The position numbers and the translations under genes were made by a program. Below the pieces are notes generated by a model, which saw only the letters and a list, made by a program, of their open reading frames with translations, was not told the DNA's origin and ran no database searches. A DNA stretch of 64,000 nt from Synechococcus sp. CB0101 (lineage in GTDB: Bacteria > Cyanobacteriota > Cyanobacteriia > PCC-6307 > Cyanobiaceae), in the NCBI RefSeq assembly GCF_000179235.2, contig NZ_CP039373.1, forward strand, positions 2,576,554 through 2,640,553, in the 5' to 3' direction. Positions 4,246-47,582 of this stretch are shown in pieces; position 1 is the stretch's first letter; each line of letters opens with the position of its first letter.

Positions 4246-4291
4246 AGGCTATGGACAACCAGCTGGACTCAGGAGAGGTTTGACCTCACCA

Positions 4292-4391
4292 GAAACTCCC
4301 TGAAAAGCCCCTCGCTCCTCATCTGGTAATGGGCAATCAGCCCTGCGATGGTGAATACATCGAGAGGAACACGCCTCCGACTTCACACCAA
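4292..4391 (+). repeat. Copy A of ~100-base upstream repeat
   Basis: This aligns without gaps to 4672-4771 (offset 380), with about 79 of 100 bases identical by hand count. Bases 4341-4367 are identical to 4721-4747 over 27 bases. It lies directly upstream of the first double-glycine peptide gene. Both copies contain a mini reading frame starting MVNTSRGT at the same place. In copy A it runs in frame into the peptide gene. It could be a shared 5' UTR or promoter, or the scar of a duplication. Confidence 0.85.
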
Positions 4392-4413
4392 ACGCTCAAC
4401 AAGGCCGACACCC

Positions 4414-4593
4414 ATGAGCACCAACACCACCGAACTCAAGACAAACATCACTGAACTCAAAAACAAAGAACTGGAAACTATCCAGGGCGGTCTTGGCTCC
4501 ACAATCCTGGGCTACAAAGCCGATTTTGACTCCGGGCTCTTAGGGGCTAGCAATCAAGCGCGATGTGAATATATTCAGGTAGTCTTCTCTTAG
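4414..4593 (+). CDS. Double-glycine-leader peptide 1 (bacteriocin/RiPP-like precursor)
   Basis: This is a 59-aa precursor. The ATG at 4414 gives a leader of 26 residues with ELKNKELETIQGG, matching the class II bacteriocin / C39-peptidase leader pattern (ELxxIxGG). The predicted core is 33 residues, starts LGSTILGYKADFDSG, and has one Cys. A longer in-frame start at 4348 inside the upstream repeat is possible but gives an atypical basic extension. No modification enzyme or exporter is nearby. A GG-cleaving ABC transporter elsewhere would be needed. AT content is higher than in the flanking genes. Function (antimicrobial, signalling or biofilm-type secreted peptide) is not determinable. Confidence 0.7.
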   Translation: MSTNTTELKTNITELKNKELETIQGGLGSTILGYKADFDSGLLGASNQARCEYIQVVFS

Positions 4594-4624
4594 TAGTCAC
4601 TCTGCGTAAGCGTCCGCAACAAGA

Positions 4625-4652
4625 AAAGCCCGGCTGTACAGCGGGCTTTTTT
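4625..4652 (+). terminator. Terminator after peptide 1
   Basis: A stem AAAGCCCG / CGGGCTTT with a GCTGTACAG loop is followed by a T-run. It lies about 30 bases after the peptide 1 stop and before repeat copy B, so peptide 2 probably has its own promoter. Confidence 0.85.
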
Positions 4653-4671
4653 CATGCATACTCTTTCACTC

Positions 4672-4771
4672 GAAACTCCCCGAAACCTCCCCGGCCCCTC
4701 ATCTGGCTTGTCGCAGTCAACCCTGCGATGGTGAATACATCGAGAGGGACACACCTCCGACTGCACCTCAC
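4672..4771 (+). repeat. Copy B of ~100-base upstream repeat
   Basis: This is the second copy of the element at 4292-4391, placed directly upstream of the second double-glycine peptide. Its mini frame MVNTSRGTHLRLHLTH ends at a TAA at 4776-4778, just before the AAGGAG ribosome-binding site (4777-4782) of peptide 2. The mini frame is therefore either a leader peptide or chance coding inside a regulatory repeat. Confidence 0.85.
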
Positions 4772-4790
4772 ACATTAAGGAGTTTCAATC

Positions 4791-5027
4791 ATGACTAACA
4801 AAGCAGACCGTGGTCTCAACCCTCAAACTACCGACCTCCCTCATCAACCAGTAGAGCCTTCGGATGAAGAGTTGGCTGTTGTGGCCGGTGGTTTTGACAA
4901 GGATGCATACTGGCAAGGGGTTGTTGGGCGGTTATCTGATGAAATTGAGCGCGAAACAGAAGCTAGATTAATTAAGGAAAGGATGTACAGGGGTGAGTAC
5001 GCCGCTGATTTTGATGGAGGTTCGTAA
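4791..5027 (+). CDS. Double-glycine-leader peptide 2
   Basis: This is a 78-aa precursor. The leader (about 34 residues) ends in PSDEELAVVAGG, close to the LSDEELEAVAGG motif of Nif11/NHLP-type and other double-glycine leaders. The predicted core of 44 residues begins FDKDAYWQGVVGRLSDEI. It is charged and likely helical, and contains no Cys, which argues against a lanthipeptide or disulfide product. The start is supported by AAGGAG 8 bases upstream. One 60-base line inside it is only 38% GC by hand count, well below the neighbourhood. No processing genes are adjacent. Confidence 0.72.
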   Translation: MTNKADRGLNPQTTDLPHQPVEPSDEELAVVAGGFDKDAYWQGVVGRLSDEIERETEARLIKERMYRGEYAADFDGGS

Positions 5028-5083: not shown

Positions 5084-5213
5084 CCTCTTCAACAGCCCAC
5101 CAAGACCCCTCATTCAGTCGTCAATAACTGGCACCATTGCATCGAAATGAGCCTTGTTGGCGGGTGGCGTGACCCCCTTTGCTGGTCCAGTTCTTCTGAG
5201 AGCTGGTGGGTAG

Positions 5214-6013
5214 TCAGGCCGCTTTCCATTGCTGGATGACCTCCAGGGGCGTACGCCCCTGGAGCGCCGAATGCGGTCTGTAGGTGTTGTACTCGAGTCG
5301 GTGCTGCTCAGCCAACAGCCTGGCCTCCTGCACCGAGGTGAACATTTCGATGTTCAGGAATTCATCCCTGAACCGGCTGTTGAATGACTCCACAAATGGG
5401 TTCTCCCAGGGCGAGCCCGGTGGGATGTAAGCCGTGCTGCAGCCACTCGCAGTGCACCACTCCTGCAAGGCATTGGCGATGAACTCCGGGCCGTTATCCA
5501 TCCGCACATGCGTAGGCGGTGGATAGAGCTTGAGCAGCTCCTCGACGTGTCAATTACCTCAGCAGCCCTACAGCGTCTGCCGATCCGAATCGCCAGGCAG
5601 AGCCGGCTGTATTCGTCGATCACATTGAGGATCTTGAGGGTTCTCCCATCCATGGTCTGATCGAACTGGAAGTCGATCGCCCAGACGTGATGGGGGTATT
5701 CAGCACGCAGCAGCTCCCGTTTGTCTCCGGGAGGACGTGATCGCTTGCGCCGGCGCGGGAGGGGGCGCTGCAACCCCTCCTCCCGCCAGATCCGTTGCAC
5801 CCGTTTGTGATTGACGCTCCAGCCCTCGAGCCTGAGCCTCCGGTACACAAGCCGCCGGCCCCAGCGCACATGACGCCTGGCCAGCTCGCGGATACGGCGG
5901 CGCAGCTTCTGCTCCTCAATTGCGGTGACCGCTAACGGCCGGCGTTGGGTATTGCGGTTTTGGCCGGCCAACCGGCAAGCACGGCGCTGGGATACACGGA
6001 ATCGATCCTGCAG
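5214..6013 (-). pseudogene. IS3-type orfB transposase of element 1, split and frameshifted
   Basis: This is an rve/DDE integrase. An N-terminal HTH_21-like region (RELARRHVRWGRRLVYRRL) is followed by the catalytic core AIDFQFDQTMDGRTLKILNV with its first Asp, MDNGPEF with the second, and NSRFRDEFLNIE in the region of the catalytic Glu. One base is missing near 5545-5550: the frame changes between RCRAAEVID and EELLKLYPPP. The gene's start region is separated from it by element 2. Removing that insertion and one AACA joins 7249 to 6013 and restores AVCVLQDRFRVSQRRAC, matching the same stretch in element 2. Confidence 0.85.
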
Positions 6014-6062
6014 AACATGACGTGACCCCCTTCATTGGTCCAGGCGCAATGAGAGTGGGTGG

Positions 6063-6892
6063 TTATGCAGCAGCTGGTTGAGCTGCCTCCAGGGGCGTAC
6101 GCCCCTGGAGGGCTGAATGCGGCCTCAAGGTGTTGTACTCCCAGCGCCAGCGATCAGCCAAGGTTTGGGCCTCGCTCACGGTGGTGAACAGCTCGGTGTT
6201 CAGTAACTCATCCCTGAACCGGCTGTTGAACGACTCGGCAAACCCGTTCTGCCACGGTGATCCTGGTTCGATGTAGGCCGTGGTGGTGCCGCTGTTCTCG
6301 CTCCAGCGCTTGAGGGCGTGGGCGATGAATTCGGGCCCGTTGTCGCTGCGGATGAACGCTGGGGCTGGGTAGAGGCTGGTGAGCTCCTCCAGCACCGCCA
6401 CGACGTCTCTGGACTTGCAGCGCCTGCCCACCCGGATGGCCAGGCAGAGACGGCTGTGCTCGTCGATCACGTTGAGGAACTTGAGCCGCCGGCCATCGGC
6501 CGTGGCGTCGAATTGGAAGTCCATCGCCCAGACCTGGTGCGGGTGCTCAGCCTGGTGACGTCGCACCGAGCCGTCAGCCGGGCGTGCCCTCTTCTGCTTG
6601 CGGGGGTGGGCCGCTGCAGGTTCTCCTCGCGCCAGAGCCGGTGCACCCGCTTGTGGTTCACCGTCCAGCCTTCCCGCCGCAACAGGCGGTGGGCCATGCG
6701 CCGGCCCCAGCGGATGTGCTCAGCTGCGATTTCGCGGAGACGATGCCTCAGCTTGGCCTCCTCAAGATCGGCGACCTTGCCGACATGGCGCTGGCTGCTG
6801 CGGTGCTGGCCCACCAATCGGCAGACCCTCCGCTGGGATGCCCGGTAACGCTCCTGCAGGACTGTGACGGCCCGCCGGCGACGCTCCGGGCT
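6063..6892 (-). pseudogene. IS3-type orfB transposase of element 2, one-base frameshift
   Basis: The upstream half (SPERRRRAVTVLQERYRAS ... REENLQRPTP) and the downstream half (RRHQAEHPHQVWAMDFQFD ... LEAAQPAAA) are in different frames. The break is near 6595, where a run of C appears one base short; adding one C would read RKQKRARPADGSV and restore a full DDE integrase. The catalytic motifs MDFQFD, SDNGPEF and SFNSRFRDELLNTE are intact. In IS3 elements orfB is normally made as an OrfAB fusion by -1 slippage. The frame here lies -1 to orfA, as expected. Confidence 0.85.
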
Positions 6893-7170
6893 CAGAAGTT
6901 TCCCTCAGCGAGGTCCTTGAGCATCGCCTTGTCGAGCTCTGCTTCCGCCAGAAGCCTTTTGAGCCGGGCGTTCTCTTTCTCCAGCTGGCTGAGCCGTTTG
7001 GCCTCTTCTGCCTTCATTCCGCCGTAGAGCTGCCGCCAGCGGTGGTAGGTGGGCTGGGAGACCTCGAGAACTCGGCAGGCGTCCGCAACTGTCTGGCCCT
7101 GGGCAAGCAACTGGTCAGCCGTTTTGAGCTTGCGGATGATCTGCTCGGGTGTGTGGCGGGTTCGTTTCAT
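6892..7170 (-). CDS. IS3-type OrfA (transposase HTH subunit), element 2
   Basis: This is a 92-aa protein with an N-terminal HTH (RHTPEQIIRKLKTADQLL, VADACRVLEVSQPTYHRW) and a C-terminal leucine-zipper-like coiled coil (RLSQLEKENARLKRLLAE). It is the normal length for IS3 OrfA. The start at 7170 (MKRTRHTP) is preferred over an in-frame upstream start at 7212, because the same MKR start exists in element 1. It differs from the element 1 OrfA at 17 of 92 positions. Confidence 0.9.
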   Translation of the reverse strand: MKRTRHTPEQIIRKLKTADQLLAQGQTVADACRVLEVSQPTYHRWRQLYGGMKAEEAKRLSQLEKENARLKRLLAEAELDKAMLKDLAEGNF

Positions 7171-7303
7171 GGTGGAGTCCCCGGCCCAGTCTGGCCGGAT
7201 GAGGACTCTCATTCACCCTGGACCGATTTTTAGGGGCCACGCCAAACACACACGGCTCTGTCGCGCCGCAAGGTGCGCTTTGCAGCGCAACGTCGCTCCG
7301 GGC

Positions 7304-7582
7304 TCAGAAGTTTCCCTCGGCCAACTCCTTGAGCATCGCCTTATCCAATTCAGCATCAGCTAGAAGCCTCTTGAGGCGGGCGTTTTCCTGCTCCAATTCC
7401 TTGAGGCGTTTCGCCTCGGTGGCTTTCATCCCGCCGTCGAGCTGCTGCCATCGGTGATAGGTCGGGGCCGACACCTCCAGGGCACGACAGACATCGGCGA
7501 CGCTCTGGCCCTGGTTGAGGAGCTGCTCAGCGGTGCGCAGCTTGCGGATGACCTGCTCGGGTGTGTGGCGCTTGCGTTTCAT
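7304..7582 (-). CDS. IS3-type OrfA, element 1
   Basis: This is a 92-aa HTH plus coiled-coil protein, MKRKRHTPEQVIRKLRTAEQ to LAEGNF, co-linear with the OrfA of element 2. It is intact, but its partner orfB is interrupted 55 bases downstream by element 2 and is frameshifted, so no active transposase can be made from this copy. Confidence 0.9.
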   Translation of the reverse strand: MKRKRHTPEQVIRKLRTAEQLLNQGQSVADVCRALEVSAPTYHRWQQLDGGMKATEAKRLKELEQENARLKRLLADAELDKAMLKELAEGNF

Positions 7583-7657
7583 GGGGCTTCTCCTGGCCAA
7601 GTCTGGCCGCTTGGGAAGCTCTCATAAGGACTGGTTCAGTTTTTGGGGTGCACGTCA

Positions 7658-7980
7658 CAACCCCGTGCGAACGGGGATACTTCGGATGCCGCAGTATTTC
7701 GCACAATTTCTCGCACACCACTAGACCCAGTCCAGTCCCCAAAGGGTTTTTACCCCCAGATACCAACCGCCTTCTGAGCAGCCTGTCGATGGTTCGCATC
7801 CATCAGAGGGCGTTTCCAGCGAGGCAGGCCTTCAACGGCCACCTGTTGATTGATCTCACCAACAATTCCCCAGATCCTCCCTGAGGTTTCTTCTGGTGAT
7901 CCAGTGAAGGTTGAAGGATTCTGAAGAGGTGAAGGGGAGCACCCCACACACCTCAGCGATCCAAAACAATCAGAAGCACC
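7658..7980. other. Intergenic stretch at the island's right edge
   Basis: Between the end of IS element 1 and peptide 3 there is no convincing gene. The stretch holds a small hairpin (CCCCGT / ACGGGG, 7661-7676), the tRNA-Arg remnant (7769-7812), and about 170 bases of sequence leading to peptide 3. I saw no integrase remnant that I could defend. Confidence 0.6.
7769..7812 (+). repeat. Degenerate copy of the 3' half of tRNA-Arg (att-like scar)
   Basis: These 44 bases match tRNA-Arg positions 4118-4161 at 40 of 44, covering the anticodon loop to the discriminator base. The substitutions break the anticodon (TCT followed by GAG) and the T loop (TTCGCATCC), and no 5' half is present, so it is not a functional tRNA. 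It is a direct repeat in the same orientation as the intact gene. This is what integration into, or duplication from, a tRNA 3' end leaves behind. Confidence 0.85.
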
Positions 7981-8262
7981 ATGACCATCGAAACCGTCAC
8001 CACAGTGACCGACAAGAACACTTTCGACCTGTCAGATGCAGACCTGCAGGGAGTGGTCGGAGGCCGGAGAGATCGTTCTGCTCAACGAAAAGCGCGCAAA
8101 GCACAGAGGCAGATTCGATCCATGCAACCGACGATCAGCCTCGATGGAGGAGTCGTCACGATTGATGGTGTCTCGACCGGTGGCCCTGGTCCAGCTCCGT
8201 TCAATCACTTTGAACCGATTCCCGAGGCTGACAGAATCACCTTCCCCCAGATGCCTGGCTGA
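7981..8262 (+). CDS. Double-glycine-leader peptide 3
   Basis: This is a 93-aa precursor. The leader (28 residues) ends FDLSDADLQGVVGG, a double-glycine motif like those of peptides 1 and 2. The predicted core is unusually long (65 residues). It begins with an Arg/Lys/Gln-rich basic helix (RRDRSAQRKARKAQRQ) and turns into a Gly/Pro-rich tail (STGGPGPAPFNHFEPIPE), without Cys. A basic amphipathic start is compatible with a membrane-active peptide, but this is inference. It lies 169 bases after the tRNA-Arg remnant and converges on the dnaJ-like gene with a 7-base gap. Confidence 0.68.
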   Translation: MTIETVTTVTDKNTFDLSDADLQGVVGGRRDRSAQRKARKAQRQIRSMQPTISLDGGVVTIDGVSTGGPGPAPFNHFEPIPEADRITFPQMPG

Positions 8263-10885: not shown

Positions 10886-10950
10886 CCTGCGCAGATCGAC
10901 AGGGGTCGACAGGCCACAGCTGCAGATTTGCAGCCCATCGACTGAAACTT

Positions 10951-10970
10951 AAAAGGGGCCTTCCAGCCCC
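10951..10970 (-). terminator. Terminator of ssrA
   Basis: On the minus strand GGGGC-TGGAAG-GCCCC is followed by TTTT, directly downstream of the tmRNA coding piece. Confidence 0.75.
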
Positions 10971-11228
10971 AATGGATCATTTGGTTGATAAGGCTGATCT
11001 CACCCCATCTCCCTTATTAGGGTCAGGCGGCCACAGGGGCGGTCTGACGGGAGAAACGAACGATGTTGTTCGCTGTTACGTGTTTGCTCTGACCGAGCAG
11101 GCTTCAGTCACCCTCCTCATGCCCCGTCGAAACCATTGCAGCCCCGAAAAGTGGAGCTGAGCGGAATCGAACCGCTGTCCGAAACACTGGTGTGAGCCAC
11201 CTAGTCCGGCCGAAACCGGACTCCTTCA
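10971..11228 (-). ncRNA. ssrA: tmRNA, circularly permuted two-piece form
   Basis: On the minus strand the 3' (acceptor) piece comes first. It has a hairpin AGTCCGG / CCGGACT near 11222, then the T arm GCGGTTCGATTCCGC and the acceptor end CAGCTCCA (to about 11152). After a spacer of only a few bases the 5' (coding) piece begins GGGGCTGCAATGGTTTCGAC at 11145. GGGGCTG pairs with CAGCTCC. The tag frame, from a GCG resume codon (11071-11073) to TGA (11023-11025), reads ANNIVRFSRQTAPVAA, the picocyanobacterial tag. tmRNA rescues stalled ribosomes with SmpB. Exact outer ends are estimates; the downstream pseudoknots were not drawn. Confidence 0.95.
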
Positions 11229-11264
11229 TTGTGGCAGTAGCCAGTGCAGGGCGCAGGGGTGGGC

Positions 11265-46139: not shown

Positions 46140-47582
46140 TCAACCCACGGAGCCCTCCAACTTCAGGGCCAGCAACTTGTCAGCTTCCGCGGCAAATTCC
46201 ATCGGCAGCTGATTGAACACATCGCGGCAGAAGCCACTCACCATCATCGACACCGCCTCTTCAAAGCCGATGCCACGGCTTTGTAGATAGAAGAGCTGAT
46301 CTTCCGAGATGCGGCAGGTGCTGGCCTCGTGCTCCACCGACGCCTGAGGTTGCTGGGAGCGGATATAGGGATAGGTGTTGGCGGCGGCCTGATCGCCGAT
46401 CAACATCGAATCGCACTGGCTGTAGTTGCGCGCGCCCACAGCCTTGGGGCCGATCTGCACCAAACCGCGGTAGCTGTTCGCGGAGCGACCGGCACTGATG
46501 CCCTTGCTCACGATCGTGGAGCGGCTGCGGGGCCCCACATGAATCATCTTCGTGCCGGTATCGGCCTGCTGTTTGTTGTTGGTGAGGGCCACGGAATAGA
46601 ACTCACCCACCGAATCCGCCCCCTGCAGCACACAGCTGGGGTATTTCCAAGTGATCGCTGATCCGGTTTCCACCTGGGTCCAGCTGATCTTGCTGCGGTC
46701 GCCGCGGCACTGACCGCGCTTAGTCACGAAGTTATAGATGCCACCCACACCGTTCTCATCACCGGCGTACCAGTTCTGAACAGTGGAGTATTTGATGGAG
46801 GCATCGTCGAGCGCCACCAATTCCACGACGGCCGCGTGGAGCTGGTTGGTGTCAAACATCGGGGCAGTGCAGCCCTCGAGGTAACTCACGGATGCACCTT
46901 CCTCGGCCACGATCAAGGTGCGCTCAAACTGACCGGTATCGCCGGAGTTGATGCGGAAATACGTAGAGAGCTCCATCGGGCATTCCACACCTTTGGGAAT
47001 GAACACGAACGAGCCATCGCTGAAGACTGCGGAATTGAGCGCAGCGAAATAGTTGTCATTACTGGGCACCACTGTGCCGATGTAGCGCTCGATCAACTCG
47101 GGGTGCTCCTTCACCGCCTCGCTGATGGAGCAAAAGATCACGCCGTGCTCGGCCAGCTTCTCTTTGTAGGTCGTGGCGATCGAAACGCTGTCGAACACCG
47201 CATCCACCGCCACGTTCGAGAGCCGCTTCTGCTCACTCAGAGGAATGCCGAGCTTGTCGAAGGTTTCGAGCAGCTTGGGATCCACCTCATCGAGGCTCGC
47301 TTTTTTCTGCTGGTGCTTGGGGGCGGCGTAATAAACGACGTCTTGATAATCAATCGGTGGATAACCGAGGGCAGCCCAATCGGGCTCGCTCATCTGTAAC
47401 CACTGCTTGTAGGCCCGCAGCCGGAACTCCAGCAGGAAGGCAGGCTCCTCCTTCTTGCTGGAAATCAGGCGGACCACGTCCTCACTGAGGCCCTTGGCGA
47501 TCTTTTCGGTTTCGATATCGGTGACGAAGCCGTACTTGTACGGCTGGCTCACCAGATCACCAACAGCCTGTGCGTTGCTCAT
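46140..47582 (-). CDS. sufB: Fe-S cluster assembly scaffold SufB
   Basis: This is a 480-aa scaffold on which clusters are built. The N-terminal [20 protein letters not shown] is followed by the SufB core ([20 protein letters not shown] with the conserved Cys; [19 protein letters not shown]). It sits between ftrC (10 bases upstream) and sufC (80 bases downstream). Confidence 0.97.

Follow-up and report, generated by a model that had tools for sequence, protein, structure and literature searches.

A candidate two-component-controlled promoter cassette upstream of dispersed double-glycine peptide genes in Synechococcus sp. CB0101

The window analysed here is a stretch of 64,000 nucleotides from Synechococcus sp. 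CB0101 (contig NZ_CP039373.1, positions 2,576,554 to 2,640,553), and its subject is a repeat of about 100 bases that lies upstream of small genes whose products carry a double-glycine (GG) leader. Copies A (4292-4391) and B (4672-4771) align without gaps and are identical at 79 of 100 bases, with a 27-base core, CCCTGCGATGGTGAATACATCGAGAGG, shared exactly between 4341-4367 and 4721-4747; realignment thus confirms the pair as an earlier note on this DNA had described it. A repeat search extends the pair to 4286-4393 and 4666-4773, at 79% identity. Copy A precedes the gene for peptide 1 (4414-4593, plus strand; GG leader MSTNTTELKTNITELKNKELETIQGG, ComC match of 21 bits against a cutoff of 20.4) and copy B the gene for peptide 2 (4791-5027, plus strand; leader MTNKADRGLNPQTTDLPHQPVEPSDEELAVVAGG). 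The count of two in the earlier note was incomplete, as a third, diverged copy (type IV, 7856-7955) is present in the same window, where it precedes the GG peptide gene for peptide 3 (7981-8262, plus strand; leader MTIETVTTVTDKNTFDLSDADLQGVVGG), and a further 25 copies are located elsewhere in the genome.

A search with copy A recovered 20 close copies from the 2.79-Mb genome at E-values of 8e-67 to 8e-6, which places the repeat far beyond chance, and covariance models added eight diverged copies to give a total of 28. The second of these models, built from 27 sequences, listed all 28 genome copies, although it was trained on most of them and its E-values for those copies are not independent. 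Twenty-four of the 28 copies precede an open reading frame (ORF) with a GG leader, three precede an ORF with a degenerate leader cleavage site (AG, AA or GP) and one (1431108) precedes no recognisable leader. The earlier note had taken the repeat to be regulatory, since the upstream stretch was better conserved than the genes; this is borne out, as the further copies also precede GG peptides and copies unrelated to peptide genes were not seen in the genome. The downstream products are wholly different from one another, comprising several peptide families, two FKBP-type prolyl isomerases (L009 8225-8569 and L010 6336-6677, the latter listed also at 6258; hidden Markov model matches were scanned for one of the two) and one thioredoxin-like protein (L053 8097, minus strand, assigned by sequence). 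The isomerases and the thioredoxin-like protein have GG leaders as well as the peptide promoter, and are folding enzymes that are apparently exported by a peptide exporter.

When all copies are placed in one register and their columns compared, a common layout emerges. It opens with 44 bp of 11-bp repeats; a linker whose sequence is unconserved but whose length is fixed leads to a -10-like hexamer, and a putative transcription start at A or G follows. Across positions 1-44 the mean identity is 0.46 at lag 11 and is also raised at lag 22, with most other lags near 0.25; none of 20,000 column permutations, which preserve the conservation between copies, reached 0.46 (mean 0.27, standard deviation 0.04). 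The boxes of the window's genome take the forms TCACCAGAAAC and TCCCTGAAACC, together with an inverted TCTGGT. In a set of 16 representatives, all less than 80% alike, most of -73 to -33 is conserved and -32 to -21 is not, while A at -11 is present in 16/16 and T at -7 in 15/16; the rest of the hexamer varies (GATGGT, GATAGT, GATTCT, CATGAT, CACGCT, CAGTCT and GAGGGT were seen). In sigma70-type -10 elements no positions are better conserved than A-11 and T-7, and because this signature stands at a constant distance from (A/G)TCG (one-base shifts in two copies), the A/G of that motif is taken as the likely transcription start. The distance from the boxes to +1 is likewise constant (offset 73, plus or minus one base in two copies) while the stretch -32 to -17 is unconserved, and about 73 of the 100 repeat bases lie upstream of the predicted start. 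The description of the repeat in the earlier note as a regulatory 5' untranslated region (UTR) or leader therefore holds only in part: it is regulatory, and its last 22 or so bases behave like a 5' UTR hairpin, but the rest appears to be promoter, with 11-bp repeats and the A-11/T-7 signature. An extracytoplasmic function (ECF) sigma factor promoter, with GAAAC...TCTGG as its -35 and -10 elements, was rejected as an interpretation because it explains neither the 11-bp repeats nor the A-11/T-7 columns.

Within the window, all on the plus strand, the putative operator of copy A consists of four 11-bp units (4286-4296, 4297-4307, 4308-4318 and 4319-4329; -73 to -30), delimited by periodicity, column conservation and the permutation test, and the fourth reads as the inverted box, TCTGGT. 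Its -10 element would be GATGGT at 4347-4352, from column conservation, and its start A4359, where a predicted 5'-terminal hairpin begins (ATCG-A-GAGG-aacacg-CCTC-CGA, 4359-4380; covariation and folding). Copy B has four corresponding units at 4666-4709 (periodicity and model match), a predicted -10 GATGGT at 4727-4732 (column conservation) and a putative start and 5' hairpin at 4739-4760 (folding). In copy C, the diverged type IV copy, the operator reads TCACCAACAAT TCCCCAGATCC TCCCTGAGGTT TCTTCTGGTGA (7856-7899; model match and periodicity), the likely -10 is GATTCT at 7917-7922 (column conservation) and the predicted start and 5' hairpin, GTG-aa-GGGG-agca-CCCC-a-CAC, occupy 7929-7949 (folding).

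The hairpin opens at the predicted start and takes the form ATCG-A-GAGG...CCTC-CGAT in close copies, and ATCGGAA-gaaa-TTCCGAT, CGGAGGG...CCCTCCG or GAGGGCG...CGCCCTC in others. In a structure-naive alignment with the diverged copies added, four of its seven pairs have double changes, and the number of double-changed cells was reached by 2 of 500 shuffles. Folding of +1 to +36 gave a mean z of -2.6 across close and diverged copies, compared with +0.4 further downstream.

The element is found in two of the 25 genomes of the window's genus, the window's own genome (G000) and a second genome, G015; when the genus was searched at nucleotide level with the close form, only the own genome matched. 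Weak R2 or R1 matches in G002 (the third match in the genus), at L098 and at window position 46856 have no peptide gene and were treated as chance, and a weak R1 match in G296 (E = 6e-4 in a 300-genome search) was not used as evidence. The G015 copies surround a peptidase-C39 ATP-binding cassette (ABC) exporter and adjoin the genes of a histidine kinase and of an OmpR/PhoB-type regulator (domains Response_reg and Trans_reg_C). The kinase (L098 8584-10038) and regulator (L098 7886-8587) of the window's genome, both on the minus strand, directly adjoin exporter genes too, and the neighbours of the kinase in both element-bearing genomes are genes for a C39 exporter or for GG peptides. The full arrangement, kinase and regulator beside a C39 exporter and GG peptides with the common promoter, is seen at L098 in G000 and at L054 and L085 in G015. 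G000 has the only full-length match to the G015 kinase within the genus (48% over nearly the whole length); the partial matches in other genomes are probably paralogous.

A distant kinase match pointed to genus g34, where 11-bp repeats built on the same unit, TCACCAGAAAA TCACCAGATCT..., lie near the pair; the clean marine form of the boxes is TCACCAGAAGC TCACCAGAACC.... Matches to the pattern TCACCAGRNNNTCACCAR are concentrated in a few of 400 genomes of the family (22, 14, 12, 10, 8, 7, 6, 6... matches), and a reversed control pattern is near zero. The 56 distinct marine promoters read are nearly all from genera g34 and g29, and in most of them six 11-bp units span -84 to -19, GATCTT stands at -12 and GTCGAGGGGGcaacaCCCCC runs from +1; their TCACCAG at -73 keeps the register seen in the window's genome. 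For marine promoters, of which a sample was folded from +1 to +36, the mean z was -2.3. By a simple rule, 31 of the 56 lie before GG or Nif11 peptides, and the proteins that follow another 14 have a hydrophobic N-terminus and are mostly likely to be secreted. Pattern scans of viral contigs gave zero matches, as did those of genome contigs, but the latter are uninformative because the two patterns, although written for the G015 and g34 promoters, failed to recover even these, and near records may have been excluded. A hybrid promoter, the first of L137 in G276, joins marine TCACCAG boxes to a window-type start region, GCGATGGTG..TACA/GAGAG.

The related promoters co-occur with the related kinase. 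Full-length orthologues of the G276 kinase were sought in 41 genomes of g34, g29 and g24 and found in 14; box pairs are present in 12 of those 14 as opposed to 4 of the 27 without the kinase. Furthermore, of eight orthologues inspected, five (G276, G316, G281, G296 and G047) have a box pair immediately ahead of the kinase gene, and in G047 this pair is the sole match in the genome. The regulators of the window's genus and of the marine group are 48-53% identical to each other, compared with 41-46% to an outside paralogue. In G276 (L113 7264-10638) a gene for a periplasmic-binding-protein-like lipoprotein, PhnD-like by eye, is situated between the regulator and kinase genes, an arrangement that suggests a three-part sensor.

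Taken together, the copies, periodicity, fixed spacing, -10 signature, covarying hairpin, downstream GG genes and kinase/regulator co-occurrence, all of them sequence-based, indicate that the repeat is probably a stand-alone promoter cassette of a two-component-controlled exported-peptide regulon. One histidine kinase/OmpR-type regulator pair probably controls the entire set, because marine relatives use a related promoter with that pair. Under the proposed model, the histidine kinase would phosphorylate the OmpR/PhoB-family regulator encoded beside it, and the phosphorylated regulator would bind the row of 11-bp boxes as head-to-tail dimers (clean form TCACCAGAAGC/TCACCAGAACC) and recruit RNA polymerase to the weak -10 element, [GC]AnnnT, thereby activating the promoter. 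Transcription would begin at (A/G)TCG, giving a messenger RNA (mRNA) that opens with the short hairpin AUCGaGAGG...CCUCCGAU, which probably protects the mRNA end or sets its life time, and the GG-leader peptides and small proteins would leave via the neighbouring peptidase-C39 ABC exporter. Binding by the regulator, activation as opposed to repression, the role of the hairpin and the handling of these peptides by the exporter are each predicted from sequence. A bolder extension, in which the exporter-linked kinase senses an exported (or a competitor's) GG peptide and the OmpR-type regulator switches on tens of dispersed peptides plus the GG-leader FKBP and thioredoxin from one promoter, as a communication or warfare regulon in several picocyanobacterial genera, is speculative and on balance doubtful.

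Several observations weigh against the model. Diverged copies were found by similarity, so the columns they share are partly so by construction; the -10 hexamers match TATAAT poorly; and the boxes of the window's genome have diverged from the clean marine form. The p-value of the kinase-box co-occurrence (Fisher, p = 1.6e-5) is optimistic, as the genomes are related and not independent. G255, which is 99% complete, has boxes without a kinase orthologue, while G118 and G331, both incomplete assemblies, have the kinase without an exact box pair, and a clean box is absent upstream of the kinase and regulator genes in G000 and G015. Identity between the two groups is only about 29-39% for the kinases, compared with 48-53% for the regulators, and with the boxes also diverged the case for the same regulator in both groups is indirect. 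It could therefore be that the promoter and operator are correctly read but another transcription factor binds the boxes, the kinase/regulator pair merely sharing genomic islands with them. G255 and the divergence of the G000 and G015 kinases from the marine ones fit this alternative, but it is countered by five genomes in which boxes stand immediately before the kinase gene, once as the only match, and by the family of the regulator, which is known to bind 11-bp-phased direct repeats: for its OmpR/PhoB relatives the sites are tandem repeats of 8+3 bp (PMC1906773) or 7+4 bp (PMC4832192). Another factor is unlikely.

Less probable still is a riboswitch-like structured 5' UTR, with transcription from upstream of 4286 and folding of the whole element of about 100 nucleotides. 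Strong conservation before divergent genes and the complementary ACCAGA/TCTGGT pair flanking the 5' half would suit such a structure, and a check for covariation, as proposed in the earlier note, did find that the 3' hairpin covaries when diverged copies are included. The 5' stem and the CGATG/CATCG stem have no compensatory change. A first RNA structure with three helices, ACCAGA/UCUGGU, CGAUG/CAUCG and GAGG/CCUC, showed no double change in any helix among the close copies and was dropped. The 11-bp period of the 5' half suits DNA and not RNA, the linker is unconserved yet fixed in length, the boxes are also found before kinase genes, and no Rfam family matches the element at the gathering threshold or even at E<5.

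That the repeat has no function of its own, and was passively carried along when whole peptide genes were recently duplicated in tandem or to dispersed sites or is a mobile repeat resembling a miniature inverted-repeat transposable element, is very improbable; many copies are clustered and transposases are nearby, but the upstream parts are conserved while the genes differ completely, FKBP and thioredoxin included, the register is maintained across genera and the copies keep a constant position relative to the start codons that follow.

The earlier note had also pointed out that both copies can encode MVNTSRGT, and the reading frames agree: in copy A the frame continues into peptide 1 and in copy B it ends at a TAA just before GGAG. 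A leader-peptide attenuator, in which translation of this mini-frame controls the downstream peptide, is nonetheless scarcely credible, despite the frame shared by both window copies and a few synonymous substitutions, given that its ATG is found in just 12 of 20 close copies, that the frame is lost from type IV, G015 and some type III copies, and that the ATG of copy A (4348) falls inside the predicted -10 element, so that the frame is probably not transcribed and is regarded as incidental.

The proposed regulon has parallels in known systems. In Gram-positive bacteriocin regulons (ComCDE, plantaricin, sil/gallocin type) a kinase/regulator pair near a C39 exporter likewise goes with direct-repeat promoters over several GG-peptide loci, whereas here the regulator is OmpR-type and not LytTR, the kinase is HisKA, the hosts are cyanobacteria, a 5' hairpin is predicted on nearly every transcript and any inducing peptide is hypothetical. 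The 5'-terminal stem-loops of the ompA type, which stabilise mRNA, are placed as the predicted hairpin would be, at the extreme 5' end and followed by an unpaired spacer and a ribosome-binding site; the hairpin described here differs in that all members of a regulon would have it and that it is embedded in the start region, and its stabilising role is putative.

Tandem Pho boxes of PhoB/SphR (PMC1906773) are also 11-bp-phased direct repeats upstream of the -10 that replace a good -35 and are bound by an OmpR/PhoB-type regulator. However, the units here are TCACCAGAAxx and not the CTTAACCT of SphR or the E. coli Pho box, they number up to six and reach to about -84, and the targets are exported peptides, not phosphate genes. 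The prochlorosin/synechococsin (ProcA/SyncA, Nif11) families of marine picocyanobacteria resemble the present set in having many dispersed precursor genes per genome (PMC10783134). Regulators have been noted near prochlorosin clusters, in a main text where neither "promoter" nor "upstream" occurs, and prochlorosin function is described there as unknown (PMC10783134). Some Nif11 genes of g34 carry the promoter described here, unlike the Nif11-type peptide genes inspected in the same clusters of the window's genome, where the element is absent immediately upstream. These genes (L009 10158, L010 8600 and L012 5556) instead have a different conserved upstream stretch in common, CACTATCCTGCTGACACCAGGTTGAAGGTCAGCGATAATGG, possibly a second promoter class. 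A literature search found no description of the promoter or regulon, although its coverage was partial and an earlier description elsewhere is possible.

Synechococcus and Prochlorococcus are rich in double-glycine and Nif11 peptides. With a common promoter and a named candidate regulator, the scattered orphan peptide genes would become a single regulon open to testing, and one regulator would serve as a handle on when and why the peptides are made. The promoter also reveals new members, such as probably secreted small proteins without GG leaders.

Other features lie close to the peptide genes. A GG-peptide paralogue, MQPQLGRPVVDKVLSEAVGG... (L053 11946-12290, minus strand), which adjoins a transposase-like ORF, has lost the element and is possibly silenced. 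The peptide cluster at 1105-1109 kb borders the gene for a large RTX-type (HemolysinCabind) protein (L010 9336-11897, minus strand). Between peptides 2 and 3, window positions 5165-7650 hold two partly degraded IS3-type transposase copies with remnants of the leading ORF; their rve/HTH-like ORFs are 72-91% alike over several blocks. Further along the window, a permuted transfer-messenger RNA (tmRNA) gene is found at 10932-11241 on the minus strand, a form ordinary for this group.
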